Shown here one piece after another: positions 5,691-47,066 of a stretch of 60,286 nucleotides of DNA. Each line of letters starts with the position of its first letter. The stretch's first letter is position 1. The notes under the pieces were generated by a model. That model was not told the DNA's origin and searched no databases. It was given only the letters and a program-made list of their open reading frames with translations. Source of the stretch: a virus; IMG/VR virus record IMGVR_UViG_3300031539_000028, positions 1-60,286 of that record. One strand, written 5' to 3'. The position numbers were made by a program, and so were the translations under genes.

Positions 5691-7564
5691 GCATACTCGT
5701 TCCGTCTTCGCTCGTCGACGTCGAGGACTCTCCGCTGTCAAGCGAGCTGTGGGCGCTGGCGTACCTGTTCCTCGCTGACTGGAAGCTGGAAGCGTCCCTC
5801 GAGACGGCCTACTCGACCGACGTCGTCTCAGCCGAGACGGTCTCCGAGAGCCGCGTCGGACTCATCAACCGTCCATACCGGACGATGGCCGTCAACCTGA
5901 TGGGGCTGAACCGCGACGAGGGCCTGTCGCTCAAGATGGTCGCTAGCAGGCTCGCGCAGGCCGCCAACCTGATCCCCGTCTATGTGGATTCGTCGAGGCT
6001 GCTCTCAGCCGCCGACGCCGAAGACACCGCGCTCGCCTGCGACACGACGAATCGACGCTTTCAGGCGGACGGGAGAATCGTCGTCGCCGAGCCTACGAAC
6101 GGCGACGGGATGTTCTCGCAGTTCGAGGTCGCTGAGATCGAGTCCCTGACGGACTCTGAGATCACACTCAAGGCACCGCTCTCCGGAGACTTCCCGGCCG
6201 GATCGAAGGTCATGCCGCTGATGGAGGCCAGGCTCAGCCTTCAGAACTCCGGCATTTACCTGACCGCCGACACCTTCGAGGCGCAGTTCGCGTTCATAGA
6301 GAGCACTGGCGAGCAGACGCTGACTCCGACCGTGGCGCCCGGCACAGACCCTGCCGGCTTCCCTCTTGCAGAAGACGGCATCCCGATCATGGATCGCCGG
6401 TTCAACTGGAATAGCGACGTCACCGGAGGCATCCAGCGCGAGGGGGGCTACTCTCAGCTTGGGCGTGACTCAGTCGTTCAGGCTCACGGAGAGAGGGCGC
6501 GCGCCGTAGTCGGCTTCGCGGTCACGTCTCTCAACCGCGACGACGCGTTCGAGCTGCTGCGGTTCTTCGAGTCTCGCGGGGGCCGCCTTCACCCCTTCTG
6601 GATCCTCTCGCCTATGTGCGACTATGAGGCGAGCGAGATCACGCAGACCACCGTCACGGTCCGCGCAGTCGGCCCGGAGTTCGATTGGGCGTTCAGGCCG
6701 CACGTCGGGATCACGCTCAGCAACGGCACGATATACGTCGCGGAGGTCTCCGGGACCACTCGCATCGGCTTGAACGACGTCGTGACGTTCGCGGACCCGC
6801 TCCCGTCAGCTCCTCTCATTGGAGACGTCCGAAGCGTCAGGATGGCACACAGGGTGCGCTTCTCATCCGACGCCATGCGAGAGGCGTGGATCACCGACGA
6901 GACCGTCAGCGTGTCCCTGTCTGTCGTCGAGGTGCTTCAGGAGAAGAGCGTCGAGGTCGAAGGACTCCTGTCTCAGCCGAGCGGCCTCAGAGACCTGCGA
7001 GTCGAGGGGCAGAGGATCGGCGGCGGATTCGTTTGGCCGGCGCGCCCGTGGGACACCGCGCAGGTCAGCTCCGGCAGCCCTGTCCTGAAACTGTCTGCGC
7101 CGGCAATCACGGAGTTCGTGAAGGGCGGCTCGTCCGACAGGATCGGGAACAGGGTCCTCATGCGGGCGTTCGGCGTTGTCGTGGTGCGAGGCGTGTGGGC
7201 GAAGTTCTACACGGACTACGCAGGCAGCTTCGACCTCACGTTCCGCCTCGAGCGCGAGGAGGACGACGAGGTGCTCGCGGAGGTCACGCTGGACGAGACT
7301 ATGCTGGGCGTGGCACACGGCACGGTGAACAAGGAGAACTTCGCCTACGTTCAGTTCGTGGCACCTGCCTTGATAACGCGTGACCGATGGTACAGGATAA
7401 CGGTCGAGGCGAACCCGTGGGCTGACCTTCACATGAGTCAGTGGGCGGACCGGGGCCGGGAGGAGTTCCACGCCGCGGAGCGCGCCTCTGGCGAGTGGGT
7501 CGACGTGCCAGACGACGTGCTGGCGCTCGCGCTGCTTCTGGACGCCGGGGACTCTAGTCCGTGA
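5687..7564 (+). CDS. Tail-tip protein following the tape measure (DUF2460-like position)
   Basis: This 625-aa beta-rich protein starts in an ATGA overlap with the tape measure stop. Its position matches the distal tail or DUF2460-type protein of gene transfer agents and similar phages. The central part has alternating strands and turns and recurrent SVVQ or VSLSV segments. The C-terminal 150 residues resemble a jelly-roll module (FDLTFRLEREEDDEVLAEV) and could bind sugar. I see no catalytic motif. The role as a hub or distal tail protein is inferred from gene order. Confidence 0.5.
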   Translation: MSILVPSSLVDVEDSPLSSELWALAYLFLADWKLEASLETAYSTDVVSAETVSESRVGLINRPYRTMAVNLMGLNRDEGLSLKMVASRLAQAANLIPVYVDSSRLLSAADAEDTALACDTTNRRFQADGRIVVAEPTNGDGMFSQFEVAEIESLTDSEITLKAPLSGDFPAGSKVMPLMEARLSLQNSGIYLTADTFEAQFAFIESTGEQTLTPTVAPGTDPAGFPLAEDGIPIMDRRFNWNSDVTGGIQREGGYSQLGRDSVVQAHGERARAVVGFAVTSLNRDDAFELLRFFESRGGRLHPFWILSPMCDYEASEITQTTVTVRAVGPEFDWAFRPHVGITLSNGTIYVAEVSGTTRIGLNDVVTFADPLPSAPLIGDVRSVRMAHRVRFSSDAMREAWITDETVSVSLSVVEVLQEKSVEVEGLLSQPSGLRDLRVEGQRIGGGFVWPARPWDTAQVSSGSPVLKLSAPAITEFVKGGSSDRIGNRVLMRAFGVVVVRGVWAKFYTDYAGSFDLTFRLEREEDDEVLAEVTLDETMLGVAHGTVNKENFAYVQFVAPALITRDRWYRITVEANPWADLHMSQWADRGREEFHAAERASGEWVDVPDDVLALALLLDAGDSSP

Positions 7565-7583: not shown

Positions 7584-8627
7584 ATGGGCGTGACCAAGGG
7601 CGGCATCCTCGTTCCGAGCCCGCTGTCGTATGACTACGATACCATCGGAACAGGTGTAGCAGGAAGTCTGACGTGCTCGGCCTCGTCCGTGATACGCATC
7701 GTGACCAGAGTTCCGTGCAATGCCAGGATAGACGACTTCGAGGCGTTCTACGCGATGCTGCGGGTGTCCCCGGCGCTCGGCTACATCACCTTCACGATCA
7801 AGGTGACGAACCTCAGGACGTCTCAGGTGCTGTCGACGTCGTCGCACACAGTGCTCGCTCCGATCTTCACCCCACATAGGTACGACATCTCGAAGGGCAA
7901 CGAGCTTCTGCCGGGCGATCCTATAGAGGTGCTGATCACCAGGACGATCGGAGACGAGCTCCGGATGATGGCCTGGCAGAATGGCGCGTTCTTCTCCAGC
8001 GCGGTGGTCGGACAGGCGTTCCCGTCAGCGTCGGATTCGTTCCAGAGATTCACCACGCCGGCGATGTTCTTCTCGTGGCTGGACTCCGACGACGCTGTGC
8101 TGGTCGAGTGGATGCCAGGGCTCCTGCCGGCATCCGCGCTTCACTATTCAACCACCGCCGCGCGCGCGTTCGTCGGAAACCTGATCACGATGCCGTTCGC
8201 CGACAGGCGGCCGTCCGGAATATGGCTCCGTCAAAATGGCGGCACCGCGCGCTTCAAGGCAAGCATCTATCGAGAGCCGACCGGCTCGAGCGACTTCACG
8301 GAGATGTACAGCATCTTGTACCCGGACGAGTACCCAGGGTTCGTGTGGTACAGGATATTATACCTGCCATTCGACGGTGCTCAGCCCATCCTGGAGCGAG
8401 GCAAACGCTACGTCGTGGGAGTCGGCGATGCCGTCGGGCCCCAGTACTCTGGCAGCGTATACTACAGTGAATGGATCGGCTCGTCGTTTCCATCACCGTT
8501 GGACCCGGTCCACAGCGGATTCAGCTTGCTGGCAGAGGCCCGCGAGGTTGTACCGTCCGGTGCGTGGATCGCCACGGCGCGGAAGAGGTTCGAGGTCGGC
8601 CTGGTGTTCGAGGAGAGCGAGACGTGA
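7584..8627 (+). CDS. Tail-tip protein of unknown function
   Basis: This 347-aa protein lies between the DUF2460-like and DUF2163-like genes, so it is probably part of the tail tip. It is beta-rich and aromatic-rich (SVYYSEWIGSSFPSP, YPGFVWYRILYLPF), typical of receptor-facing virion domains. There is no signal peptide, membrane segment or recognised motif. ATG 7584 lies after GGGGTGAG. Its stop TGA overlaps the GTG start of the next gene, so the two are translationally coupled. In the gene-transfer-agent order this slot is normally empty, so it may be a lineage-specific adhesin. Confidence 0.45.
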   Translation: MGVTKGGILVPSPLSYDYDTIGTGVAGSLTCSASSVIRIVTRVPCNARIDDFEAFYAMLRVSPALGYITFTIKVTNLRTSQVLSTSSHTVLAPIFTPHRYDISKGNELLPGDPIEVLITRTIGDELRMMAWQNGAFFSSAVVGQAFPSASDSFQRFTTPAMFFSWLDSDDAVLVEWMPGLLPASALHYSTTAARAFVGNLITMPFADRRPSGIWLRQNGGTARFKASIYREPTGSSDFTEMYSILYPDEYPGFVWYRILYLPFDGAQPILERGKRYVVGVGDAVGPQYSGSVYYSEWIGSSFPSPLDPVHSGFSLLAEAREVVPSGAWIATARKRFEVGLVFEESET

Positions 8628-9454
8628 AGCAGAGCGAGCTCGACACATCCTCCGCGAGGCTGTACGCGACTCTCCTGACCTTCAAGTGGAGTGATCAGGT
8701 CAGGCGATACGCCGCGTTCAACGAGCGCGTGGTTCGAGCGACGTCCGATTGGGGCGGGCTCGTCACCACATGGGACGCGGCTCCCGCCGTCAAGGTCGAG
8801 TTCCAGCGACAGCACGGAGGCGCCGAGGACGCTCCCATCTCGATCCTGATGCCGGCCGCTCTCGAGCCCGCCGGTGCTCTCGTGACCGGGCTCCCGCACG
8901 CAGGCGTCGATGTGCTCGTGGAAGAGATCGAGCCCGGGAACGACGGCACGCTCAGGCCAGTCTTCTTCGGACGCGTGGTCGAGGCCACGTACAACGCCGC
9001 GGGGCTCGAGGGCGCTGTCAGGCTCCGCGTCGCCGGCCTCAAGGACAGACTCAGCGTCCAGTGCGGGATCGCCATCACGAACGCATGTGTGTGGACGTTC
9101 GGCGACGGGAACTGCGGCGTCGACGTGGAGTCCCTGAAGGTCTCTGCGACCGTCGACGCAATCGCTGGGAGCGTCGTCACGCTGGACGTCGCAGGACCGA
9201 GCGCGCGCTACTATCACCGCGGATGGATCATGCGCGATGGAGCTCGCATCATGATCAGAGAGTACACGACAGGGAACGACTACACGCTCGTCAGGCCGCC
9301 GCCGCCGGGGTGGAGCGGGCAGCAGGTGACGCTCGTGCCCGGCTGCGACAAGACCAGGGATGTGTGCGACACGCGATGGAGCAACCTCCTGCGCTTCGGT
9401 GGGGCTGGGCTCGGGATTCCAGCCTACAACCCTGTCTTCGAGTCGGCGTCCTGA
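8624..9454 (+). CDS. DUF2163/BR0599-type tail-tip protein
   Basis: This 276-aa protein has the cysteine-containing C-terminal signature of the phage BR0599 family (PGCDKTRDVCDTRWSN, about residues 240-256, then a FGG-containing tail). In rhodobacterial gene transfer agents this family is the iron-sulfur-containing tip protein beside the NlpC/P60 peptidase, and the neighbour here is the same. An N-terminal beta domain covers residues 1-150. The GTG start overlaps the previous stop (GTGA) and follows GAGGAGAG. The family call is good; metal binding by the cysteines C224-C256 region is inferred. Confidence 0.75.
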   Translation: MKQSELDTSSARLYATLLTFKWSDQVRRYAAFNERVVRATSDWGGLVTTWDAAPAVKVEFQRQHGGAEDAPISILMPAALEPAGALVTGLPHAGVDVLVEEIEPGNDGTLRPVFFGRVVEATYNAAGLEGAVRLRVAGLKDRLSVQCGIAITNACVWTFGDGNCGVDVESLKVSATVDAIAGSVVTLDVAGPSARYYHRGWIMRDGARIMIREYTTGNDYTLVRPPPPGWSGQQVTLVPGCDKTRDVCDTRWSNLLRFGGAGLGIPAYNPVFESAS

Positions 9455-9894
9455 CGGCTCTCGGCCGCGTCCTCGAGAGCTGGCGGGGAACCCGCTACAT
9501 GCACGGACAGTGCTGTCGCGGGGCCGCCGTGGACTGCATCCGGTTCGTCGTCGCCGTCCTGGACGAGCTCTACGGGATGAGCCCCGAGCCAGTTCCAGTG
9601 TTGCCACCGGACACGAGCTGGCACAACCCGCGCGGCGCCTTCGAGGTTGCAAGGATAGTCGAGAGACGATATCCTCACGACAAGGTTGAAGGCGACGTCG
9701 TGGAGCCAGGCGACGTGATAGTGTTCAAGATCGCTGAGAGCCCGGGGCACGTCGCAATCGTTGGGCCCAGGCCTGGCACCATCTGGCACTCGAATCCTGG
9801 CGTCGGCGTCGTCGAGGCGGGACTCGGCGAGGTCGGCACGATGCTGCTGCACGCGTGGCGGCTGAAGGGCAAGGATCAATGGCCAGCGTTCTAG
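9451..9894 (+). CDS. Tail-tip NlpC/P60 cell-wall peptidase
   Basis: This protein of about 147 aa is a cysteine peptidase that probably cuts peptidoglycan peptides while the tail penetrates the cell wall. The catalytic cysteine lies in VDCIRF (about residue 29) and the histidine in PGHVAIVG (about residue 100), followed by a W-H segment typical of the fold. The N-terminal helix (LGRVLESWRGTRYMHG) is needed by the family, so ATG 9499 is too late. The best start is CTG 9451, which overlaps the previous stop (CTGA); CTG starts are rare, so this is tentative. The 3' end overlaps the hub gene. Confidence 0.8.
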   Translation: MTALGRVLESWRGTRYMHGQCCRGAAVDCIRFVVAVLDELYGMSPEPVPVLPPDTSWHNPRGAFEVARIVERRYPHDKVEGDVVEPGDVIVFKIAESPGHVAIVGPRPGTIWHSNPGVGVVEAGLGEVGTMLLHAWRLKGKDQWPAF

Positions 9895-12323
9895 CCAGCC
9901 TCGTGGTGTCGGCTGGCATATCAGCCATCTCGAAGGCGCTCGCTGACCCCGAAGCCGCCTCTCCCTTCGACGACAAGCCCACTCCCAGCGTGCGTCACGG
10001 CTCGTTCATGCCGCTCGTGTTCGGGCGTGGCAGGATAGCTCCGCTGTTCGCGTGGGTCGGAGACAGGCAGGTCGTCATCACGAAGGAGAAGGCTCCCGGT
10101 GGGAAGAGCAGCGTGTTCGGGAGCGGCCCGATATCCGTCTCGAGCTACTTTGAGCGCGCGTGGCACGCGCTCTGCGTCGGACCCGGCAGCGCGGTCGAGG
10201 GCATCTTCTCCAACGGCGAGCTCGTCTACGGGACCAGGATCACGCCGACGTCTCACCCGTCAGGCACGACCATCAGCGTCGCCGACTACGGCAGCTTCAA
10301 GCCCTACTGGGGTGAGATCGACCAGCCGGTCGACCCGCTGATATCGGCGAAGGTCGCAGCGTCGCGCTTCCCGCATGTGATGTCACTGGTGTGGGGCGCA
10401 CCGGGCCCACCGGAGTTTGGCGTATGGGGTGGGGCGAAAGGCAAGTACCTGGGACAGTCCGCCAACTGGCCGGCGATGGAGTACACCGTCGAGGTGCGCG
10501 TGAAGGACTCGCCTCTCCTCGACTCGCCGGCGTGGCTCGACGAGACAGGCGTCGACAAGGGCGACGACGGAGTGAACCCGGCTCATGCGCTCTGGCAGCT
10601 CCTGACTCAGCCGTATCCACACGGGGCCGGGATCGGCGTCGAGCACGTAGACGTGGGGGCCTTGGAGCGGCTCGGCGCGCTCTGCGCCGAGGAGCATGTG
10701 CCCATGAATCTCGTCGCTGGCGGAGGCATCGCCATCAGCGGAGTGATCTCTGCGATTCTCACCGACCTGAGCGTGACGCTCCCTCAGATCGGAGAGGTGC
10801 TGAGCGTGAACCCCATCAGGGAGGACGACCCGGCGATCACGCTCCCGAGCGACATCGTGATCGCGCCGCTCCCTGAGGTCACGATCCAGCATGAAGGGAA
10901 GCGTGCGGACAGGGTCATCTTCATCTTCCGGGATCAGACGAACAACTACAACGAGCAGGACATCGCCGTCGACGACGACGGCTCCGCGGATCAGTACGGC
11001 GTCCCCAAGGTCCGCAAGATACCCATCGCCATCGTGACGCATCCTGAGGTCGCGGCCGCGGTCGTCGACAGGCGTCAGCAGGAGGAGCTCGTCAGCGTGG
11101 CGGTCGTCACCATCAAAGCCTCCCGCGCAGCGAGGGTGCTCGTCTCCGGCCAGCCCTTCGTGGTCGCGGGGGTCGGAAAGCTCCGGCTCATGAGCACCCT
11201 TCTGGACGACCTGTCGAACGAGGTCTCTCTCGAGGCGATGTTCGACAGGTTCTCTCCGTCGCCCACGGCCTATGAGCCGCCGGCGCCCGACATCAACATC
11301 CCTGAGTACGACGCCGAGGAGGACTTCGCGTTCACGTTCTTCGAGTTCCCACTCTCGGTGGTGCCGGAGCTGAGGATCGGCGTGTTCCGCATACGGGCGA
11401 ACAGCGCGATATCGAGTGCTCCGGTGTGGCTCTCTGCCACCGGCGCATCGTATCAGCAGAACCACATGCAGAACGCGGCCTTCGCCGGCGGCGAGCTCAC
11501 GTCCGAGTTCGACGTCGGGATCGACACAATCGTCGAGCAGGGGCCCACGATGGACGCCGCGAACGACGACATCGCGTACGTCCTGAACCTGACGGGCGAC
11601 GACGAGAACTGGCGGCTCGGACTTCAGGTGTGCATCCTTGAGGACGAGGTGTCAGGCGAGCACGAGATCCTGTTCCTTCGGAACGTGACCGCGCTCGGCG
11701 GCGCGTCCTACCGGCTGGACGGTCTCATCCGCTCGAGGTACGACACGCTTCGCAGGACGTTCCCTGTCGGGACGAAGGTCTACGTCTTCCGCTGGAACGA
11801 CGTCGAGCGGATCGAAGACCCGCTCGTCGCGCTCGGCATCGACCTGTGGCTCAAGACTCAGCCTGGCACGAGCCGTCGGATCGTCGACGTGTCGACCGTG
11901 ACTCCCGTGGTCAAGACGATTGTCGGCCGCGGAGCTCGCCCGCTCCCGCCAGACAACTTCAGGGCCAACGACGACGGATCGCATCCCGTCGACGAGTACG
12001 GAGCCGGAGGCGACGTGCTCTTCGAGTGGACATACAGGGTCAGGAGCGGCTCCGGGGCCGCGGCCGGCGAGCAGCGCGCCGGCATCGCGATCACTGGGAC
12101 TCCGTCTCACGACGGCGTGTTCAAGGTCGAGATCATCGACCCGTCCGGGCCCACCGTCGTCAGGACGTTCGAGATCGACTCGGACGTGACGCAGCAGAGC
12201 TACACCAACGCTCAGCTCGTGTCGGACTTCGGCGGCGAGCCTGCCACGTTCGACGCTCGGCTGACGAACGTCGACGGGGCCTACGTGTCAGACGACCGCG
12301 AGATCAGCGTAGTCAAGGTCTAG
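9879..12323 (+). CDS. Large central tail hub/fibre protein (gpJ or GTA gp15 position)
   Basis: This 814-aa protein follows the NlpC/P60 gene and should form the tail-tip hub that contacts the receptor. The start resembles tip-attachment proteins: a hydrophobic helix (LASLVVSAGISAISKAL) and then a conserved segment RHGSFMPLVFGRGRIAP. The middle holds the usual glycoprotein-like TIPv-type barrels, and the C-terminal 200 residues look like FN3 repeats (LPPDNFRANDDG onward). ATG 9879 has AAGGGCAAGG upstream and lies inside the end of the peptidase gene. The call rests on order, length and the N-terminal segment. Confidence 0.7.
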   Translation: MASVLASLVVSAGISAISKALADPEAASPFDDKPTPSVRHGSFMPLVFGRGRIAPLFAWVGDRQVVITKEKAPGGKSSVFGSGPISVSSYFERAWHALCVGPGSAVEGIFSNGELVYGTRITPTSHPSGTTISVADYGSFKPYWGEIDQPVDPLISAKVAASRFPHVMSLVWGAPGPPEFGVWGGAKGKYLGQSANWPAMEYTVEVRVKDSPLLDSPAWLDETGVDKGDDGVNPAHALWQLLTQPYPHGAGIGVEHVDVGALERLGALCAEEHVPMNLVAGGGIAISGVISAILTDLSVTLPQIGEVLSVNPIREDDPAITLPSDIVIAPLPEVTIQHEGKRADRVIFIFRDQTNNYNEQDIAVDDDGSADQYGVPKVRKIPIAIVTHPEVAAAVVDRRQQEELVSVAVVTIKASRAARVLVSGQPFVVAGVGKLRLMSTLLDDLSNEVSLEAMFDRFSPSPTAYEPPAPDINIPEYDAEEDFAFTFFEFPLSVVPELRIGVFRIRANSAISSAPVWLSATGASYQQNHMQNAAFAGGELTSEFDVGIDTIVEQGPTMDAANDDIAYVLNLTGDDENWRLGLQVCILEDEVSGEHEILFLRNVTALGGASYRLDGLIRSRYDTLRRTFPVGTKVYVFRWNDVERIEDPLVALGIDLWLKTQPGTSRRIVDVSTVTPVVKTIVGRGARPLPPDNFRANDDGSHPVDEYGAGGDVLFEWTYRVRSGSGAAAGEQRAGIAITGTPSHDGVFKVEIIDPSGPTVVRTFEIDSDVTQQSYTNAQLVSDFGGEPATFDARLTNVDGAYVSDDREISVVKV

Positions 12324-37745: not shown

Positions 37746-38801
37746 ATGTCTCGGAAGGAGAAGGGCACGGTGAAGTGGTGGGACGAGTCGTGGAATCCTG
37801 TGGTGGGATGCACTCCTGTATCGCCGGCGTGTGACAACTGCTACGCCGCGCGAGACGCCTTCAGGCTCGCACGCGCCGGTGGGAAGTGCTCGAAGTACGC
37901 CGGGCTGACCGAGCTATCGGAGGTCTCCCCGCGAACATCGCCCGCAGAGTATCGAGCGAGGTACAACGGCAAGATCAGGTCCGTGAACGAGGACTCGCCG
38001 ACGTGGACTCAGCCGACGCGGTGGCACAGGCCGCGCACGATCTTCGTCTGCAACATGAGCGACCTGTTCCACAGTGGGACGCCGGTGCCGGCTATCAGGC
38101 GCGTCTTCGAGTCCATCATCATGGAGGATCGGCACCTGTTCCTGCTCTGCACGAAGCGGATCGGCCGCGCGCTCCAATTCATTCAGGACGCCAAGATCGG
38201 ACTCCACGGACAGATCATCGGGGAGCAGCTCGCGGTGCATCGCAGGATTCCGAACGCTTGGATCGGGGCCACCGTCGAGGACGGGCGATGGGCGGCGGTG
38301 CGTCTCCCTGGACTCCGCGAGCTCGCTCCGTTCTTCGGCGGTGCGTTCGTGTCGTACGAGCCGGCGCTCGGGCCCGTCGATTGGGAGAGCCACGTCGGAC
38401 CGGCGGTCGACGACGTCAGACTGGTAGACGCAGGTGGTATCCGCACGCGCGAGCACTGGCTGAGCTGGATCGTCGCTGGCGGAGAGTCGGGAGCGCACGC
38501 GCGCCCGTCTCACCCGGACTGGATCAGGTGGACTCGCGAGTTCTGCAAGAGCTCTGAGGTCCGCTTCACCTTCAAGCAGTGGGGCAGATGGATGCCGGCT
38601 GACGTTCGCGGCGACACCGCTGCCATGTGGGAAGACGGAGAGATGCCGCTCAACGCGGACGGGACTGACTGCCGCGGGGTGGAGTCGCTCGTCTGCCAGG
38701 ACACTGAACTGATGCAGGCAGTCGGGAAGAACACCGCGGGGCGCGTGCTGGACGGAGAGGTTCACGAGTGGGTCCCCAGTGTCGAGGGGGTGCTCGGGTG
38801 A
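37746..38801 (+). CDS. DUF5131 (Gp37/Gp68 family) protein
   Basis: This 351-aa protein matches the phage Gp37/Gp68 family (DUF5131): WWDESWNPVVGCTPVSPACDNCY near the start, cited in parts, then PTRWHRPRTIFVCNMSDLFH. Three cysteines (C-x6-C-x2-C) suggest an iron-sulfur cluster, as in radical-SAM-related proteins, though this is not the canonical spacing. The activity is not established. ATG 37746 is used; GTG 37770 also reads well. It lies between the ASCH and uracil-glycosylase-like genes. Confidence 0.85.
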   Translation: MSRKEKGTVKWWDESWNPVVGCTPVSPACDNCYAARDAFRLARAGGKCSKYAGLTELSEVSPRTSPAEYRARYNGKIRSVNEDSPTWTQPTRWHRPRTIFVCNMSDLFHSGTPVPAIRRVFESIIMEDRHLFLLCTKRIGRALQFIQDAKIGLHGQIIGEQLAVHRRIPNAWIGATVEDGRWAAVRLPGLRELAPFFGGAFVSYEPALGPVDWESHVGPAVDDVRLVDAGGIRTREHWLSWIVAGGESGAHARPSHPDWIRWTREFCKSSEVRFTFKQWGRWMPADVRGDTAAMWEDGEMPLNADGTDCRGVESLVCQDTELMQAVGKNTAGRVLDGEVHEWVPSVEGVLG

Positions 38802-39373
38802 CCGACAGGCTAACGCGATACTCACGCCGAGTCGTGCTCATCGGGCAAGCCCCGTGTCGCAAGGGCGATCCGTCGAAGCCTCTGACTGGATCGTCGGGGC
38901 TGAAGCTCGCTCAGCTCGCCGGCGTCGAGTTCCCGGGCGAGTACGCTCGCCTGTTCGAGCGCGTGAACGTGCTCCGCGAATACCGTGGGCCGGCCGCCGG
39001 CGGCAAGGGTGACGCGTTCCCGCTGTCCGAGGCGCGAGCCGCCGCGAAGGCGCTGATGCCGGAGCTCCGCGGGAGAGTCGTCGTCGTGCTCGGGCGGAAC
39101 GTCGCGCGTGCGTTCGAGCTTCATGGACTCGGATGGACGACGTGGTGGCCTGCCTGCGGCGTCGTGTGGGGTGTCATCCCTCATCCGTCTCCGCTGGTCA
39201 GGTGGTGGAACGACTCCGGCAACAGGGCCCAGGCCGCGAGCTTCATGATGCAGGCCGCCGAGCTCTCCCGCGGGATGCACGAGCGGTGGGTCAAGGAGTG
39301 CGCGTGGCTGCGCGCGAGTGCTCGTGTGCCGGGCTACGTGACGAATGTGGGATTCGGGAGGGGGACGCAGTGA
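38798..39373 (+). CDS. Uracil-DNA-glycosylase-fold protein
   Basis: This 191-aa protein has two hallmarks of the UDG fold: VVLIGQAPCRKGDP (residues 12-25, the motif A region) and IPHPSPLVRWWND (about 137-149, motif B). The catalytic Asp or Asn of canonical UDG is not obvious, so the fold may be used for another base or for binding. GTG 38798 overlaps the DUF5131 stop (GTGA). Confidence 0.7.
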   Translation: MTDRLTRYSRRVVLIGQAPCRKGDPSKPLTGSSGLKLAQLAGVEFPGEYARLFERVNVLREYRGPAAGGKGDAFPLSEARAAAKALMPELRGRVVVVLGRNVARAFELHGLGWTTWWPACGVVWGVIPHPSPLVRWWNDSGNRAQAASFMMQAAELSRGMHERWVKECAWLRASARVPGYVTNVGFGRGTQ

Positions 39374-39603
39374 GGCAGGATGAGCTGGAAGAGGCGGACG
39401 TGGCGAAGCCGGCGAAGCCGGCGAAGCCGGAGGAGCTGGACGCGGGCAAGGGGCGGTTCCTCGTGCTCTCGGCAGACGGGACGACGCTCCTGCAGTCTCA
39501 CTGCTGGCACATCGCAAAGATGCAGACCGGCAAGTCCGCTGGGGCGACGTGCTGGCGGCTGTCAATCTTCAAGGGCGGTGGATCTGTGCAGGTGCTGCCT
39601 TGA
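39370..39603 (+). CDS. Small protein of unknown function (77 aa)
   Basis: GTG 39370 overlaps the previous stop. The N-terminus has a KPAKPAKP spacer; the rest is a small beta domain (GRFLVLSADGTTLL, WRLSIFKGGG). The stop overlaps a TTG used by the HNH gene. No family was recognised. Confidence 0.5.
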   Translation: MRQDELEEADVAKPAKPAKPEELDAGKGRFLVLSADGTTLLQSHCWHIAKMQTGKSAGATCWRLSIFKGGGSVQVLP

Positions 39604-39617
39604 GCGAGCGCGAGGTC

Positions 39618-40049
39618 ATGTCTGCGGAGGAGCTCGAAGGGCTCCAACTCTTCAGGCCAGGGGAATCCCCCAATGGTGTCGAGCTGTGGGCGCCAGTCGT
39701 GACGCCTTCAGGCGACGTGCAGGGTAACTACATGGTCTCGACTCTCGGCAGGGTGGTGCGCATCGCCGGTGGATGCGGAACGCGGCCCGGAACGATCCTG
39801 CGCACTCCGCCGAGCAGGGACGGCTATCCAACCGTGTGCCTGACGCGCGGAGGAATATGCAAGACGTGGAACGTCCACAAGCTCGTCGCCTCGACGTTCC
39901 TCGGGAGGCCACCGGAGGACATGTACGGCCAGTTCCACGCGCACCACAAGAGCCTCGTCCGCTCAGACAACCGGGCCGTGAACCTCGAGTGGACGTCAGC
40001 GGAGGAGAACCTGAGCTCGTGGTGGCACAAGCATATGGGCGGGAGGTGA
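39618..40049 (+). CDS. HNH endonuclease with NUMOD4-type domain
   Basis: This 143-aa protein has the NUMOD4 pattern (YMVSTLGRVVRIAGG) and an HNH core (NVHKLVASTFLGRPPED, FHAHHKSL, DNRAVNLEW). Free-standing HNH genes of this kind are often homing endonucleases that copy themselves into cognate phage loci. ATG 39618 follows GAGCGCGAGG; TTG 39600 overlaps the previous stop and is an alternative. The catalytic site is the HxHH and N cluster at about residues 105-125. Confidence 0.8.
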   Translation: MSAEELEGLQLFRPGESPNGVELWAPVVTPSGDVQGNYMVSTLGRVVRIAGGCGTRPGTILRTPPSRDGYPTVCLTRGGICKTWNVHKLVASTFLGRPPEDMYGQFHAHHKSLVRSDNRAVNLEWTSAEENLSSWWHKHMGGR

Positions 40050-40349: not shown

Positions 40350-40949
40350 ATGACACGGATGAAGATCGTGGGCGCAGACGGCGACGTGCCGACGGAGGAG
40401 CGTCCCCGAGAGCTGGGCCTGTTCGTCGACCCGGGGTCCATCGAGACGGGCTGGTGTGTGGCCAAGCCCACGCCTGACTTCGGCCTGTCCGTGATCGCCG
40501 CGGGGACAATCAAGCGTCCGAAGGGCATGTCCCCGCTGCTCAGGATCGACGGCATCCGGTGCGACATGATGAGCTTGATGAATAAGCTTCATCCTGACCT
40601 TGGCGACTTCGTGGTCGAGGTCACGTCTGGCAAGGTGAACCGGGCTCGCCACGGAGGGGGAGGGGCCGGGCTCGGAGTTCACGGGATGGCCGTCGGCACG
40701 CTCTGGACGATGGGGCTCATGTGGCGGCCGGCCGGAGGAGCCGGGCCCACCGTGACTCCCGTCCCCGAGAACGTGTGGAAGGCTGGCTTCGGGAAGCTGA
40801 AGAGCGCGCACGTAGCCAAGAGGTATTTCGAGCAGTACGACCCGTCCACCGACCCGGAGTTCAACATCGCAGATGCGGTGGCGTTGGCGGTCTGGTACTA
40901 CACCCTTTGGATGCGCAAGCGGGCGGAGAAGAGCGGGGGCGGCAGGTGA
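40350..40949 (+). CDS. RuvC-like Holliday-junction resolvase/RNase H-fold nuclease
   Basis: This 199-aa protein has the RuvC-type acidic residues in order: LGLFVDPGSIETGWCV (D27), FVVEVTSGK (E90) and NIADAVALAVW (Asp about 182). Such phage resolvases cut branched DNA before packaging. ATG 40350 follows GAAGGGAGAG. Its stop shares one base with the next start, so it opens a coupled chain of five genes. Confidence 0.8.
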   Translation: MTRMKIVGADGDVPTEERPRELGLFVDPGSIETGWCVAKPTPDFGLSVIAAGTIKRPKGMSPLLRIDGIRCDMMSLMNKLHPDLGDFVVEVTSGKVNRARHGGGGAGLGVHGMAVGTLWTMGLMWRPAGGAGPTVTPVPENVWKAGFGKLKSAHVAKRYFEQYDPSTDPEFNIADAVALAVWYYTLWMRKRAEKSGGGR

Positions 40950-41650
40950 TGGCGTCTGACGAGGTCCGCGGAGCGTACGACGCGCTGGCTCCGATCTACG
41001 ATCAGGCCTACTCTGACGCCGTGTCGCTCGCGGAGGATCACGCGCTCGGGCTCGCCCTCAGGGTGGCCGTCGATGCATTCCACATCCCCGTCGTGGTCGA
41101 CTTCGGATGCGGGACGGGGCACGCTCTCACGATCATCAAGCGATTCGGGGGGCTCCCGCACAGGTACACCGGGATCGACCTGAGCCGCGAGATGATCGTC
41201 CGGATGCTCCTGAAGCATCCAGAGGCCAGGTCCGTCTCCGGACCCGCTGGCCTGCGAGTGCTCCCGAGTGAGTCTGCCAACGTCGTCGTGTCGACGTTCG
41301 GGATGCTCAGCTACGTGTCGACTCCGCGCACGGTGATCGGGAACATGGCTGCGGTGCTCATCCCGGGGGGCCGGTTCGTGATTCAGGCGTACGGCAGACG
41401 ATACCACGACGGCAAGAGCCTGTGCTCGTCGCTCCCGTGCCGGCTCTACTCGGTGGCAGAGCTCGAGGGGATATGCAGCTCCGCGGGGCTCGAGGTGAGC
41501 CGCGCGTGGAGCACGGGGGCGATCCTTCGGCGGCTCCCGTCCAGTCTTCCGGCGGCGGCTCTGAGAGCCGCGGCCGTCGCTGAGCGTGTGGCAGGCAGGG
41601 CGCTGGCGGACCACGGCAGGTTCCTGACCGTCGAGGGGAGACGAGTCTGA
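40949..41650 (+). CDS. SAM-dependent methyltransferase (class I)
   Basis: This 233-aa protein has motif I VVDFGCGTGHA (about 49-59), then IDLSREMI and MAAVLIPGGRFVIQAYG, typical of small-molecule methylases. The target cannot be read; lack of a DNA-recognition motif suggests a small molecule, nucleotide or nucleobase rather than DNA. It is coupled on both sides by 1-nt overlaps to the RuvC-like and PP-loop genes, so it belongs to the same cassette. Confidence 0.8.
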   Translation: MASDEVRGAYDALAPIYDQAYSDAVSLAEDHALGLALRVAVDAFHIPVVVDFGCGTGHALTIIKRFGGLPHRYTGIDLSREMIVRMLLKHPEARSVSGPAGLRVLPSESANVVVSTFGMLSYVSTPRTVIGNMAAVLIPGGRFVIQAYGRRYHDGKSLCSSLPCRLYSVAELEGICSSAGLEVSRAWSTGAILRRLPSSLPAAALRAAAVAERVAGRALADHGRFLTVEGRRV

Positions 41651-42804
41651 TGGGGAGCAGAAACCTAGGCATGAACGTGTTCGACGCAGCCATGACGCGC
41701 ATGCGGGAGCTCTACGCCCGCGGCGACAGGGTGGTGGTGTCGTTCAGCGCCGGCAAGGACTCCGGCGTGTGCGTCGAGCTGTGCGTGATGGCGGCCCGCG
41801 AGGAGGGCCGTCTGCCGATCGACGTCGTGATGCGCGATGAGGAGATCATGTTCCCGGGCACGTTCGAGTACGCCGAGCGCGTCGCGGCCCGCCCTGAGAT
41901 CAACTTCCACTGGGTGATCGCCAATCAGCCCATCCTGAACGCGTTCAACCGGGCCGACCCATACTTCTGGACGTTCGACCCGGAGCTCTCGCCGGATGAG
42001 TGGGTCAGGCGCCCGCCCGACATCGCGAAGCAGATCGCGGAGAAGAACATCGAGGCGCTCGTGACGCCGGAGAAGTTCCCGATAAAGGACGGGCAGAGGC
42101 TCTTCGACGTCGTCGGACTCAGGACGCAGGAGAGCGTTCGTCGCAAGCTCGGCCTTCACTCCTCGGGAGGCTACCTCACGGGGGAGAATCGGTGGGGCAT
42201 CCGGAAGTGCCGGCCGATCTACGACTGGACGGACGGAGACGTGTGGCTCGCGCATCAACGATTCGGGTGGGACTACAACCACGCCTACGACGTGATGAAC
42301 AGGATGGGCGTGCCGAGGAACAACCTCAGGATCGCACCTCCCACGCTGAACGTGGCGGGGCTGAACACGCTGAAGGTGGCAGCCGCCGCATGGCCGAGGT
42401 GGTTCGAGCGCGTGTGCGCGCGGCTCGACGGGATTCGCTCCGCGGCTCAGTTCGGCCGTCGAGCGTGCTCCCCGATCAGGCGCAGCGGCGAGTCGTGGGA
42501 GGACTGCTATCGACGGACGTGCATCGAGGAGGCGCCCGACTGGATAGCCGAGCGTGCCAAGCACGCGGCCGACTACTACTCGAAGCGACATCCTGTCCAC
42601 TCGACGGAGCCGTTCCCGCAGGTGAAGGCGTGCCCCAACTGCCCGGGCGGACGCTCGGTCGCATCGTGGCGTGCTCTTGCCAGCGCCATGTGGAGCGGCG
42701 ATCCCTTCTGCATGAAGGTCACGGCGATAGGCCTGCCGTACATCGAGCCTGAGTTCTTCCGTCCAGGGGCCGGGACGTGGGGAGGCGGGAAACCATCATG
42801 GTAG
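41650..42804 (+). CDS. PAPS-reductase-like PP-loop protein (IbrA-like)
   Basis: This 384-aa protein carries the PP-loop SFSAGKDSG (residues 31-39) of the adenine nucleotide alpha hydrolase and PAPS reductase superfamily, plus a later RKCRPIYDWTDGDVW. A CPNCPGG pair near the C-terminus may bind metal. IbrA-like family members often stand beside ParB-like IbrB and DNA methylases, as here. The enzyme may activate a nucleotide or transfer sulfur. The biochemical reaction is not established for this group. Confidence 0.82.
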   Translation: MGSRNLGMNVFDAAMTRMRELYARGDRVVVSFSAGKDSGVCVELCVMAAREEGRLPIDVVMRDEEIMFPGTFEYAERVAARPEINFHWVIANQPILNAFNRADPYFWTFDPELSPDEWVRRPPDIAKQIAEKNIEALVTPEKFPIKDGQRLFDVVGLRTQESVRRKLGLHSSGGYLTGENRWGIRKCRPIYDWTDGDVWLAHQRFGWDYNHAYDVMNRMGVPRNNLRIAPPTLNVAGLNTLKVAAAAWPRWFERVCARLDGIRSAAQFGRRACSPIRRSGESWEDCYRRTCIEEAPDWIAERAKHAADYYSKRHPVHSTEPFPQVKACPNCPGGRSVASWRALASAMWSGDPFCMKVTAIGLPYIEPEFFRPGAGTWGGGKPSW

Positions 42805-43532
42805 TCGACCGCATGCCGGACGGCTCGTGGCGATACGGCGACGCCGGTGACCGCTTCCCGATCAGCCCAGGCGACGTGTGGGCATCGGGGGGCCATGTGC
42901 TCGCGTGCGGGGACATCGAGCGCGGCTCGGCGGATGAGCTGCTGAACAGGTTCGCCCCGCGCGGGCCAGCCTGCGCGTACACCGACCCGCCGTTCAACGC
43001 GGCTCAAGCGACGTCGTTCCGGACGAAGGCCGGGGTCAACCGGCGCGTCGACTTCGACGCGTTTCTGGACAAGCTCATGACAGCGGTCTTCAGGGTGTTC
43101 GGATTCTCGTGGGTCGAGACGGGGATCGAGAGCGAGGCGCAGCTCCTCGCCGCCGTCAGCAGGGTGAGCAGGGAGCCCGTCAGCGCCAGGCGCTTCGAGG
43201 TCACCTACTACGGCAAGGCTCCATCGCTGCTGTTCGCGTTCGCCCGCCCGGGCTTCGGAGATGCGCTCTTCTGGCTGCCAGACCTGAGAGGGATGGACGA
43301 CGAGCGCACGCCGCGGGAGGCGATCTTGGCGTCGTGCGTCGAGGGGGCCACCGTCTTCGACCCATGCCTGGGACGAGGTCTCACTTGCAGGACGGCTCAG
43401 GAGAACAACCGAAAGTGCATCGGGATGGAGCTCCATCCGCGCCGGCTGGCGTGCGTGCTGGCATGGCTGAAGGATGAGCACGGGCACTCGCCGAGCAAGG
43501 TCGGCGAGCTGGAAACCATGAAGGGGGCGTAG
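42798..43532 (+). CDS. DNA amino-methyltransferase (beta-class order)
   Basis: This 244-aa protein has catalytic motif IV YTDPPFN (residues 61-67) before motif I VFDPCLGRGLTC (about 186-197), the order of beta-class N6-adenine or N4-cytosine methylases. The GMELHPRR segment follows as expected. ATG 42798 follows GGAGGCGGG and overlaps the PP-loop gene by 7 nt. Its short length suggests a reduced target-recognition domain. Confidence 0.85.
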   Translation: MVVDRMPDGSWRYGDAGDRFPISPGDVWASGGHVLACGDIERGSADELLNRFAPRGPACAYTDPPFNAAQATSFRTKAGVNRRVDFDAFLDKLMTAVFRVFGFSWVETGIESEAQLLAAVSRVSREPVSARRFEVTYYGKAPSLLFAFARPGFGDALFWLPDLRGMDDERTPREAILASCVEGATVFDPCLGRGLTCRTAQENNRKCIGMELHPRRLACVLAWLKDEHGHSPSKVGELETMKGA

Positions 43533-43534
43533 CG

Positions 43535-44494
43535 ATGCCTGACGATCAGAAGCAGGGAGAGGCCGACGAGGTGAACGCGAAGGCGCAGCGCACGAAGCTG
43601 AGCGCCATGAAGCGCAAGACCAAGAAGGCTATCGAGCGAAAGGCCACAAAGCTCGAGAGACTTGAGATCGCCTACGTCAAGGTGGACGCTCTCAGGCCGA
43701 ACACGTACAACCCTAACAGGCAGAATGAGCACGACTTCGAGCTCCTGATGCGGTCGATGGAGGAGGACGGCTTCACCCAGCCTGTTGTCGCCCTCAGGGA
43801 CGGCGAGATCGTGGACGGCGAGCACAGGTGGCGGGCCGCGAAGCAGCTCGGATACGACGAGATCCCCGTCGTCTTCACCGACATGACGCCCGCACAGATG
43901 AAGATCGCCACTCTCAGGCACAACCGCGCCCGCGGCTCCGAGGACGTGGAGCAGTCCGCTCAGGTGCTCCGCGACCTCAGAGAGCTCGGCGCGCTAGACT
44001 GGGCCCAGGACTCTCTGATGCTCGACGACGTCGAGATGTCGAGGCTGCTCGAGGACATCGGCGCACCGGAGTCGCTCGCGTCCGAGGAGTTCGGGGAGGC
44101 GTGGGCTCCGGAGCGCGGGATCACGTCATCCGATGGATACGAGGTCGGCGTCGAGGTGGCGGCTCACGACGACGGGGCAGGAAGCATCAACGCATCCGCC
44201 GCGACGACCCGCGCCAAGGAGGATATCAGGGAGCGCGAGAAGCGAATCGCAGCCGCCAAGACCGAGGAGGAGCGGCAGATGGCATCCCGAGAGATGAAGC
44301 TCTTTCGCCTCTCGTTGACGTTCGCCGGTGAAGAGGCTACAGTGATCAAGAGGGTGCTCGGCAAGAGGTCAGCTGAGCGCCTCTTGGAGCTCTGCCATGC
44401 GGAACTCGACAGGCAGGGGCTCGGCGAGGAGCCAGCGACGGCTGCTCTGGAAACGGAGAGCGAGGCGCAGAGTTCGGATTCGCAAGAGCCATAA
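43535..44494 (+). CDS. ParB/Srx-domain protein (IbrB-like)
   Basis: This 319-aa protein has the ParB/sulfiredoxin core IVDGEHRWRAAKQLG (about 92-106), with the nucleotide-binding GEHR at 95-98, and LRPNTYNPNRQNEHDF before it. The C-terminal 120 residues are charged helices. ParB-like proteins with this core bind or hydrolyse CTP and may nick DNA. It starts 2 nt after the methylase stop and follows the PP-loop and methylase genes, matching the IbrA/IbrB neighbourhood. Confidence 0.85.
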   Translation: MPDDQKQGEADEVNAKAQRTKLSAMKRKTKKAIERKATKLERLEIAYVKVDALRPNTYNPNRQNEHDFELLMRSMEEDGFTQPVVALRDGEIVDGEHRWRAAKQLGYDEIPVVFTDMTPAQMKIATLRHNRARGSEDVEQSAQVLRDLRELGALDWAQDSLMLDDVEMSRLLEDIGAPESLASEEFGEAWAPERGITSSDGYEVGVEVAAHDDGAGSINASAATTRAKEDIREREKRIAAAKTEEERQMASREMKLFRLSLTFAGEEATVIKRVLGKRSAERLLELCHAELDRQGLGEEPATAALETESEAQSSDSQEP

Positions 44495-44503
44495 GGATCG
44501 AGC

Positions 44504-44602
44504 GTTGTGACCACGAGTTACCGCACGGTTACGAAAAGTGCTGACGACCCGGCTTTTTCATGTTTGGGCGAGGAGCCTTCGCCCGCGCGCGTATAAGAGT
44601 GC
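44504..44602 (+). promoter_or_regulatory. Conserved hairpin-promoter block, copy 2
   Basis: GAAAAGTGCTGACGACCCGG folds with CTTTTTC into the same hairpin as at 33346, and GCGCGCGTATAAGAG follows at the same distance. The -10-like TATAAG is at 44592-44597. It sits before the terminase small subunit gene. Confidence 0.65.
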
Positions 44603-44613
44603 GAGGTGCGGCT

Positions 44614-45276
44614 GTGGCAAAGAGCGATCACAAGAGCCGGGCAGTGAACAGGGCGCTCGGCGTCGCCCGAGTCCCGTGGGAGATTCAGGAGGGCGAGACG
44701 TCCAAGGCCTTCGAGGCATTCGTCGTCTACCGGGGGCTGCCACCGTCCGAGCGCAGCGTGGAGAAGGCCGGAAAAGTGCTCGGCAAGTCGACTGGCACTC
44801 TGGATCGCTGGACTGCCAAGTACGGGTGGGTCAGGCGTGCCCGGGCGTGGGACGACGAGCAGGACGCCGCGACTCGCAATGCCGAGCTGGAGTCACGGCG
44901 GAAGATGGGAAAGCGGCACGCGCAGCAGGCTCAGACCTTCGAGCGGCTCCTGATGGAGCCGGCTATGGCTCTCGCCGAGAAGCTCCGGGACAAGGAGTTC
45001 ACGGAAGGCTTCAGGAACAAGATATCGGTGCTTGAGCCTGGCGACCTGCTCGCTCTCGTGCGCGCCTGCGCGGGCGCCTATCCGTCGCTGATGCGTGCCG
45101 AGCGTCTCGCCAGCGGAGAGAGCACGGAGAACATCGAGGGGCGCGTCGCTGTGCATCAGGTCAAGGCGGTCGCTGCGAGGATCGCGGCGAGGGCGGCCAA
45201 GTACATACCTGACGAGAAGCTGCCTGCGTTCCTGAGCGACCTGAAGGCGGACCTTGCGAACGAGCTCGGCGAGTGA
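44614..45276 (+). CDS. Terminase small subunit
   Basis: This 220-aa protein precedes the large terminase gene and has a helix-turn-helix region RSVEKAGKVLGKSTGTLDRW, cited in parts (residues 50-69), then YGWVRRARAWDDE, as in many small terminases that recognise the packaging site. The rest is helical and could oligomerise. GTG 44614 is chosen because earlier starts fall in the conserved promoter block. The stop lies inside a perfect 13-bp inverted repeat. Confidence 0.75.
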   Translation: MAKSDHKSRAVNRALGVARVPWEIQEGETSKAFEAFVVYRGLPPSERSVEKAGKVLGKSTGTLDRWTAKYGWVRRARAWDDEQDAATRNAELESRRKMGKRHAQQAQTFERLLMEPAMALAEKLRDKEFTEGFRNKISVLEPGDLLALVRACAGAYPSLMRAERLASGESTENIEGRVAVHQVKAVAARIAARAAKYIPDEKLPAFLSDLKADLANELGE

Positions 45277-45337: not shown

Positions 45338-45378
45338 TCGCCCGGCACCCACCCCAGTGACAGGAGCGTGCCGGGCGA
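45338..45378 (+). repeat. 11-bp inverted repeat between terminase genes
   Basis: TCGCCCGGCAC and GTGCCGGGCGA are perfectly paired around a 19-nt loop in the 134-nt gap between the two terminase genes. With the stem at 45262 it marks this gap as a candidate pac or cos region. Confidence 0.6.
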
Positions 45379-45410
45379 TTCCGTTGACCAGGCCTGCGCG
45401 GGAGGCGCGA

Positions 45411-47066
45411 ATGTCGAAGACGTGGCCGAAGCCGCCGTCGAGAAGAGGACGGCCAGACACGCGGCCAGAGCAGGATCAGTTTGTCAACACGTCCGACGTC
45501 TTCGGAACGATGTTCGACGAGGTCGTGTCAGAGGTCGAGGGCTACATCGCTGGTCATCGAGAGTTCGATCTCGGATACGACAGCATCGAGGACTTCGCCG
45601 CGAGCAGGCTTCAGATCACCGACAAGCAGGCTCGTCTCGTGCCATTCGTCCTGAACGGAGTTCAGCGCAGGGTGATGGACGTGAAGCGGCGCACGGTCGC
45701 GGATGGGAGGCCGGCGAAGTTCCTGATTCTCAAGTTCCGGCGCGGTGGGATCACCACGCTCGAGCAGGCGCTGTCCTATCAGATGGTGGCCACGAATCAC
45801 AACGCCAAGGTGGTGACACTCGCGCACACGTCGACTGACACGGGGAAGCTCTTCGCCATCCCACTTCTCATGCACCAGAAGGACTCGCAGGCTCCGTCGA
45901 GTCACCGGCGCGGGAACAGGCACGCCCTTGAGTTCCCTGGCATGAACTCGGCGTTCTACTGCGGGACCGCGGGGGCGTCGGGCTTCGGACGTGGACAGAC
46001 GCTTCAGCGCGTTCACGGCTCAGAGGTCTCGCGCTGGCACGAGCGGAGCGGAGGCCGTCAGATCGACCTTCAGGACGAGCTGGTCGTGGGTCTCACTGAG
46101 GCCGCCTCTCACGGAGAGATCACGATGGAGACTACGCCGAAGGGAGAGGAGTGGTTCTCCACGACGTACCGAGAAGCCAAGCGCGGGCTGAACGACTGGA
46201 CTCCGATCTTTCTGCCGTGGTTCGTGGACGACGACAACCGCGTCGAGATCACGCAGGAGGAGCGGGAGGAGATCGCCAGCACGCTGTCGGACGAGGAGAT
46301 CGAGCTCGTCGCAAGGCACAAGCTGACTCCCGAGCAGATCATGTGGCGGCGCACGAAGAAGAGGGGCTCCCGGCTCTTCCCGCAGGAATATCCGGAGGAC
46401 GACGAGTCGTGCTTCATGCGATCCGGCACGTCATTCTTCGACGTCGAGAAAGTGATCGGGCTCCTGAAGAGCGTTCCTGACTACGACAGGAGGCACACGG
46501 CGGGGGGCTATCACGTCGAGTGGGAGGAGCCTCAGGATGGCGTCAGGTACGTGTTGGGGGCAGATACGTCTGAGGGGCTCCCGGGGTGCGATTACAACGG
46601 CTACGGGGTCTTGAGACGCGACACCGGAGCTCAGGTGGCGTCCCTTCATGGTCTGTTCCGTCCGAAGGAGCTCGCAACGAGAATCTACGCGGCGCACCTG
46701 CGCTGGAACAAGGCTCTGGTTGGCATCGAGCGGGAGAATCACGGGCACGCCGTGCTACTCGCGGTGGAAGAGCTCGGGCTCAGGAGCCCGCGCAGGCTCT
46801 ATCACTTCTCGAAGGATCGGTCGGGGTGGAGCACAAACGCTGAGACGCGTCCGGTCATGCTGGACGAGCTGGCTACGTGGATCGACGAGGCTGGGCCTGA
46901 CAAGATCAAGGATCGTGACATGCTGTCGGAATGCCTGACCTTCAGACTTCAGACTTCCGGGAAGTTCGAGCACGACCCGGGGTGTCACGACGACACCGTG
47001 TTCAAGTGGGCGATAGCTCTTCAGATGCGCAAGGTCAGGACCCGCTCTCCCGAACTCTGGACGTGA
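45411..47066 (+). CDS. Terminase large subunit
   Basis: This 551-aa packaging motor has a deviant Walker A LKFRRGGITT (about 107-116), VHGSEVSRW (201-209, Walker B/lever region), MTTPKG-type coupling motif (ETTPKG, about 240-245), and nuclease motifs ADTSEG (about 383-388), GIEREN and HDDTVFKWAIAL (about 526-537). ATG 45411 follows GGAGGCGC. It should cut and package the DNA into the prohead. It is the only large terminase in the window. Confidence 0.9.
   Translation: MSKTWPKPPSRRGRPDTRPEQDQFVNTSDVFGTMFDEVVSEVEGYIAGHREFDLGYDSIEDFAASRLQITDKQARLVPFVLNGVQRRVMDVKRRTVADGRPAKFLILKFRRGGITTLEQALSYQMVATNHNAKVVTLAHTSTDTGKLFAIPLLMHQKDSQAPSSHRRGNRHALEFPGMNSAFYCGTAGASGFGRGQTLQRVHGSEVSRWHERSGGRQIDLQDELVVGLTEAASHGEITMETTPKGEEWFSTTYREAKRGLNDWTPIFLPWFVDDDNRVEITQEEREEIASTLSDEEIELVARHKLTPEQIMWRRTKKRGSRLFPQEYPEDDESCFMRSGTSFFDVEKVIGLLKSVPDYDRRHTAGGYHVEWEEPQDGVRYVLGADTSEGLPGCDYNGYGVLRRDTGAQVASLHGLFRPKELATRIYAAHLRWNKALVGIERENHGHAVLLAVEELGLRSPRRLYHFSKDRSGWSTNAETRPVMLDELATWIDEAGPDKIKDRDMLSECLTFRLQTSGKFEHDPGCHDDTVFKWAIALQMRKVRTRSPELWT

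Follow-up and report, generated by a model that had tools for sequence, protein, structure and literature searches.

The window examined here is the whole of the 60,286-nt virus record IMGVR_UViG_3300031539_000028, in which no terminal repeat was found. Packed between positions 40350 and 44494 is a cassette of five plus-strand genes, each with an ATG start and a single terminal stop, and the codon-position GC content of all five fits coding sequence. In order, they encode a RuvC-like resolvase, a class I S-adenosylmethionine (SAM)-dependent methyltransferase (MT), a PP-loop protein resembling PAPS reductases and IbrA, a small DNA methylase, and a ParB/Srx-fold protein resembling IbrB. The cassette sits directly ahead of the terminase genes (Table 1). 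The chaining of the five genes, namely overlaps of 1, 1, and 7 nt followed by a 2-nt gap, and the motifs quoted in the original prediction were all confirmed at their positions.

Table 1. Positions, strands, and family matches of the genes discussed, in the window and at related viral loci (L numbers)
Sequence	Gene or feature	Positions	Strand	Matches (E-values) and motifs
Window	RuvC-like resolvase	40350-40949	+	phrog_159, 1.7e-4 (weak); DPGSIETGW, VVEV, NIADA
Window	Class I SAM-dependent methyltransferase (MT)	40949-41650	+	Methyltransf_11, 4.5e-12
Window	PP-loop protein, PAPS-reductase-like, IbrA-like	41650-42804	+	PAPS_reduct, 2.4e-9; phrog_2302, 3.6e-54; SFSAGKDSG
Window	DNA methylase, small beta-order N6/N4 type by its motifs	42798-43532	+	N6_N4_Mtase, 9.8e-9; DPPF, FRTKAG, FDPCLGRGLT
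Window	ParB/Srx-fold protein, IbrB-like	43535-44494	+	ParB_N, 5.3e-13; GEHRW, RHNRARG
Window	Terminase small subunit (context)	44560-45276	+	phrog_6299, 4e-21
Window	Probable terminase large subunit (context)	45357-47066	+	phrog_2, 5.7e-15; tblastn to annotated TerL, 1e-41
Window	DUF5131 gene and uracil-DNA-glycosylase-superfamily gene	37746-39373	+	DUF5131, Pfam 2e-64
Window	NUMOD4-HNH endonuclease	39549-40049		
L097	HWY domain fused to class I methyltransferase	6555-7493	+	
L071	HWY domain fused to class I methyltransferase	7991-8986	+	
L072	HWY domain fused to class I methyltransferase	5693-6691	+	
L032, L163	Sodium:solute symporter or TctC periplasmic receptor	712-2124, 3076-3915	+	
L197	Cupin and full-length aldehyde dehydrogenase	4145-5969	+	Aldehyde dehydrogenase, Pfam 4.8e-104
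L146, L203	Second, divergent PP-loop gene	1683-2444, 5306-5971	+	
L201	Class II glutamine amidotransferase-like protein	5397-5981	+	MCGIYGYIG at the start; no Pfam match
L003	Genes between ParB and terminase	8348-9862	-	Amidoligase_2, 3.1e-28
L011	Genes between ParB and terminase	8121-9666	-	
L013	Genes between ParB and terminase	9137-10666	-	Gamma-glutamyl-cyclotransferase/AIG2-like, 5.8e-8

A scan of viral contigs with the PP-loop protein as the query yielded 51 relatives, approximately half of which are more than 50% identical to it. Further queries were the DNA methylase, a family of glucosyltransferase-like proteins (GT), a broad PP-loop alignment, and marine MTs. When the PP-loop proteins were collapsed at 90% identity, 101 loci were obtained beside the window, giving 102 sequences in all. 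These fall into three groups that form separate clades on the PP-loop tree: clade A with 25 loci and the window (26 rows, SH-aLRT 99), a GT-linked clade with 25 loci, and a sister clade with 51. A single relative, from Streptomyces cavernae, was recovered in a scan of a genome collection, and it belongs to the sister clade.

At all 101 non-redundant loci, the PP-loop gene has a ParB gene no more than 2.5 kb away. In clade A, an MT gene is found directly upstream at 21 of the 21 loci having at least 700 nt of upstream DNA, and its end mostly touches or overlaps the PP-loop start; the corresponding count for the sister clade is 0 of 46. The linkage also holds in reverse. With GT as the query, a PP-loop gene was present at all loci flanked by 3 kb on each side (31/31), and with the marine MTs at 21/21 loci with enough DNA after the MT, two truncated loci being left uncounted. 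Dozens of divergent viral contigs share the order MT, PP-loop, ParB, and its occurrence in the window is thus not due to chance. Within the window, the MT is translationally coupled to the PP-loop gene.

The original prediction had placed the RuvC-like nuclease in the cassette as well. Its product has no Pfam match, and no RuvC was detected near the PP-loop gene at any other locus, although the search employed a single-sequence HMM that a divergent resolvase could escape. It is therefore rejected as a member and treated as a neighbor, such that the conserved unit consists of MT, PP-loop, an optional DNA methylase, and ParB. Co-occurrence in other phages, the absence of which would have refuted the original prediction, thus stands for the PP-loop protein, the MT, and ParB, which travel together far beyond this phage, and for the DNA methylase in a subset of loci, but not for RuvC. 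Four of the five genes form a real module. A description of it was not found in the open-access literature searched; older subscription papers lay outside the search and could hold an earlier prediction.

Around the PP-loop/ParB core, partner genes vary from locus to locus. Clade A loci carry a gene for a protein of ~95 amino acids with a PHWYI motif, referred to as HWY (16/25), a GT (10/25), the DNA methylase (10/25), or a dioxygenase-like protein (2/25). The GT-linked clade, in which GT is present in 25/25 loci by definition, adds HWY in 15, the dioxygenase-like protein in 14, an MT in 5, a small EPPW methylase in 4, and a GNAT acetyltransferase, supported by Pfam, in 3. In the sister clade the partners are a cupin (37/51), a sodium:solute symporter (SSS; 6/51), and a TctC receptor (1/51), and neither these transporters nor that cupin ever occur in the other two clades. 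At L032 and L163 the symporter or receptor gene is positioned directly upstream of the PP-loop gene and is odd cargo for a phage, and at one other sister-clade locus a cupin and an aldehyde dehydrogenase gene lie between ParB and the PP-loop gene. Among the 71 rows of the tree with enough flanking DNA, 7 changes of state were counted for GT, 5 for the DNA methylase, 7 for the dioxygenase-like gene, and 15 for HWY. This turnover matches the pattern expected of interchangeable tailoring enzymes on a constant core.

The swapped partners differ in how well they can be assigned. GT is annotated as such because one member matches the glucosyltransferase family phrog_854 (2.2e-8) and a DD pair is conserved; a 29-sequence profile of the family found no counterpart among PDB chains. 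In the dioxygenase-like protein (~170 amino acids), the residues of an HxD...H motif (His 81, Asp 83, and His 127) are invariant, which suggests a dioxygenase-like triad. Its family has no PDB match of note, no match in phage records, and a Cupin_2 match that is sub-threshold only. The HWY protein matched nothing in Pfam or NCBIfam. At three loci an HWY domain is fused to a class I methyltransferase, and this fusion suggests that the two work jointly.

The PP-loop protein was modeled with AF2 to a pLDDT of 85. As indicated by the structural matches to the model, its fold is most similar to that of human FAD synthase (Z = 14.4), followed by APS/PAPS reductases (13.8 and lower) and CysD (12.5); the matches with these three scores span 166-180 residues at rmsd values of 3.7-3.8. 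TilS (Z = 10.3) lies lower, with GMP and NAD synthetases below it, and the sulfur transferases TtuA, NcsA, and LarE are also among the lower matches. Residues of the PP-loop, DEE, GxRxxESxxR, and DWxxxDxW motifs are kept across the 102 sequences. No cysteine is common to the three clades, the best column reaching 50%, and the catalytic ECGxH motif of CysH occurs in 0 of 102; CysH (PAPS reductase) was thus rejected as the identity of the protein, although the superfamily fold is shared. Together, the absence of a family-wide cysteine, the lack of ECGxH, and the nearest folds favor adenylation over persulfide transfer, and the protein is probably an adenylating enzyme.

In the DNA methylase, DPPF precedes FDPCLGRG, which is the motif order of beta-class N6/N4 enzymes. 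Asp 62, Pro 63, and Pro 64 together with Arg 74, Thr 75, Lys 76, Ala 77, and Gly 78 are invariant in seven sequences, and the closest PDB entries to its profile are MboIIA (2.6e-7) and CcrM (1e-6). By these motifs, it is a small N6/N4-type enzyme of the beta order for which DNA methylation is predicted. The ParB protein and this methylase match opposite halves of the ParB-DNA methyltransferase families phrog_498 and PDLC03229, with ParB matching the ParB half at 3.1e-29 and 2e-14, respectively.

The closest known counterpart of the core is the IbrA/IbrB pair of Escherichia, Streptococcus, Mycobacterium, and Flavobacterium phages, in which a PAPS-reductase-like PP-loop gene is likewise followed by a ParB gene. 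IbrA/IbrB activate prophage eib genes. The resemblance noted in the original prediction holds, with tblastn matches of the PP-loop protein to annotated phage IbrA of 1e-16 and 4e-22, but only at 24-30% identity. Furthermore, the window has the DNA methylase gene between the two, and its clade adds the coupled MT along with the optional DNA methylase, GT, and other genes. An established reaction for IbrA/IbrB or for the window's module was not found in the open-access literature searched.

On balance, we lean toward the view that the cassette is a modular, post-replicative DNA-hypermodification system in which adenylation by the PP-loop enzyme is combined with a ParB partner and tailoring enzymes. 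From the observed gene order, its conservation, the family assignments, and the partner swapping, and from the modeled PP-loop fold, we infer the following as to adenylation, target, order of steps, and protection. The PP-loop enzyme would spend ATP to adenylate an oxygen on its target and so activate it; the likeliest targets are a base in phage DNA and a small donor group destined for attachment to such a base. Working beside this enzyme, the ParB-fold protein would be a nucleotide-dependent partner that binds DNA or resembles a kinase. Methylation by the MT and the N6/N4-type methylase would follow, either on the base or on the group added to it; in relatives this group may instead be hydroxylated by the dioxygenase-like protein, glucosylated by GT, or acylated by GNAT. 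The product would mark the DNA ahead of packaging and block host nucleases, and the position of the cassette directly before the terminase fits such marking. Precedents are provided by the ParB-like DpdB of 7-deazaguanine DNA systems (PMC12839542) and by the ParB genes that adjoin the gene for CmoX, a DNA carboxymethyltransferase (PMC12783734). The interpretation first given to the cassette is in this way partly supported, and it is enlarged by the glucosyltransferase-like, dioxygenase-like, and acetyltransferase genes in the modules of relatives.

Several observations weigh against this proposal. The strongest is that the sister-clade symporter, TctC receptor, and cupin fit small-molecule chemistry equally well. 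The DNA methylase is the only one of the window's enzymes with a clear DNA-acting relative, and its family also occurs in short contigs without a visible PP-loop gene (L064-L067 and L069). The window contains zero matches to GT, HWY, the dioxygenase-like protein, GNAT, EPPW, or cupin, and since the first four are lacking, its own product might be methylated only. The GT model, built with AF2 from seven sequences, has a pLDDT of 54 and no Foldseek match. Finally, within clade A Cys 291 is present in 26/26 sequences, Cys 41 in 92%, and a CxxC motif in 17/26; the two individual cysteines would still allow a sulfur role specific to that clade.

The alternative that survives best, although we consider it unlikely, is a small-molecule or nucleotide pathway. 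The PP-loop protein and a ParB-fold enzyme (a SerK-like kinase or an NTPase) would produce or activate a soluble metabolite that serves in host takeover or counter-defense, and the MT, GT, dioxygenase-like protein, and GNAT would tailor that metabolite rather than DNA. Such a pathway would account for the cupin, transporter, and aldehyde dehydrogenase genes paired with PP-loop/ParB in the sister clade, and the nearest PP-loop folds, those of FAD synthase, CysD, and PAPS reductase, act on small substrates. The ParB protein also matches the L-serine kinase SerK, weakly and far below the cut-off (8.4e-6). Such chemistry is more difficult to reconcile with the embedded DNA methylase, with the resemblance of the methylase and ParB to the halves of a ParB-methyltransferase fusion, with the restriction of the transporters and cupin to the sister clade, and with the terminase neighborhood in both the window and the Arthrobacter phage Waltz.

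Those same fusions lead to a somewhat less probable explanation, namely ordinary orphan DNA methylation. The methylase and ParB would represent the split form of a ParB-methyltransferase that is common in phages and gives protection from restriction, while the IbrA-type PP-loop protein and a generic MT would be passengers. Each of the two proteins does match its own half of phrog_498 and PDLC03229, and methylases of this type are common in phages. In the window they are two separate genes in the reverse order, embedded within the MT-PP-ParB module. The 21/21 coupling of MT to the PP-loop gene, set against 10/25 for the DNA methylase in clade A, marks the methylase as the optional part, and linkage in both forward and reverse searches is unexpected of passengers.

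Sulfur-based DNA modification, either a phosphorothioate or a thio-base, is improbable. The PP-loop protein would be a DndC- or TtcA-like sulfur transferase and ParB an analogue of DndB, which was once placed in the ParB superfamily (PMC10853773). Dnd/Ssp phosphorothioation does combine a PAPS-reductase-like protein with a ParB-related partner (PMC10853773, PMC12707154), in clade A Cys 291 is invariant and CxxC frequent, and TtuA, NcsA, and LarE appear among the structural matches. Opposed to this are the want of a catalytic cysteine shared by the whole family, the missing ECGxH motif, and the higher rank of FAD synthase, PAPS reductase, and CysD. Neither a cysteine desulfurase nor DndD, DndE, SspB, or SspC was seen among the cassette neighbors examined; no scan of the whole record with Dnd models was made. 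The suggestion that the modification is possibly sulfur-based is thus weakened for the family at large and keeps its footing in the clade A cysteines. Modification of tRNA or other RNA by a PP-loop ligase and methyltransferases can hardly be entertained, for although TilS is among the structural matches and the MT matches phrog_4752, labeled as a tRNA methyltransferase (1e-6), the window contains no tRNA genes, the methylase matches the DNA-acting MboIIA and CcrM, and a ParB partner accompanies the PP-loop gene at all loci.

The carboxymethylcytosine pathway of Synechococcus phage S-B43, in which CmoA, CmoX, and CmoY comprise a SAM enzyme, a DNA methyltransferase homologue, and an AMP-forming ligase (PMC12783734), was also considered and rejected as the identity of the cassette. 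The MT is not of the CmoA family, no CmoA model being among the 17 NCBIfam families that it matched; the methylase is of the N6/N4 rather than the C5 type; and the candidate adenylating enzyme is PAPS-reductase-like rather than asparagine-synthetase-like.

Returning to DNA hypermodification, a broader version of this proposal is offered tentatively, and with some doubt, as a new class found in phages. A cysteine-independent PP-loop enzyme and an obligate ParB-fold partner would act on DNA that is already made, activating a base or a donor in it so that a group can be attached. Exchangeable modules, namely a methylase, a dioxygenase, a glucosyltransferase, and an acyltransferase, would diversify the product, and a wide range of bases would result across phages from the sea, from soil, and from cultured actinobacteria. 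This would give the IbrA/IbrB family its chemistry. If true, it would add to the DNA-modification pathways of phages one that is modular, it would offer a source of new enzymes that modify DNA, and it would help to account for ParB-domain proteins that adjoin phage DNA-modifying genes. IbrA/IbrB-type pairs are widespread in phages, and their methyl-, glucosyl-, hydroxyl-, and acetyl-transferring partners make the hypothesis directly testable.

Cultured phages with PP-loop/ParB cassettes exist for nucleoside analysis, although the window's own clade was not found in the cultured-phage collection (best identities <32%). Microbacterium phage Hendrix has a divergent version of the cassette, with genes for a GT, a glucosyltransferase, a methyltransferase with an HWY-like stretch, a GNAT, and a PP-loop protein at one end of its record. 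Three ParB genes, a gene called "RNase E", and TerL occupy the opposite end, and because the Hendrix genome is circularly permuted (PMC7302621), the two sets are neighbors. A Hendrix-like operon with three GTs is present in Microbacterium phage Rasputia. These operons share the methyltransferase and PP-loop genes with the window and the GT, GNAT, and HWY genes with its relatives, but their PP-loop proteins are ~29% identical to that of the window and they have no match to the N6/N4-type methylase. In Waltz, genes 5-10 form one run encoding ParB, a PP-loop protein, ParB, a class I methyltransferase, a helix-turn-helix protein, and TerL. This methyltransferase is of another family, matching neither the MT nor the DNA methylase profiles, and no GT was detected. 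Streptococcus phage Pika possesses a bare PP-loop/ParB pair.

Other genes were observed near the module. Approximately 1 kb upstream of the window's cassette, the DUF5131 and uracil-DNA-glycosylase-superfamily genes overlap each other by 34 nt and are followed by the NUMOD4-HNH endonuclease gene. At two related loci a second, divergent PP-loop gene is located directly upstream of the main one, and at another the glutamine amidotransferase-like gene lies ahead of it. In marine members of clade A, opposite-strand genes that include an Amidoligase_2 and a gamma-glutamyl-cyclotransferase/AIG2-like gene are inserted between ParB and the terminase.

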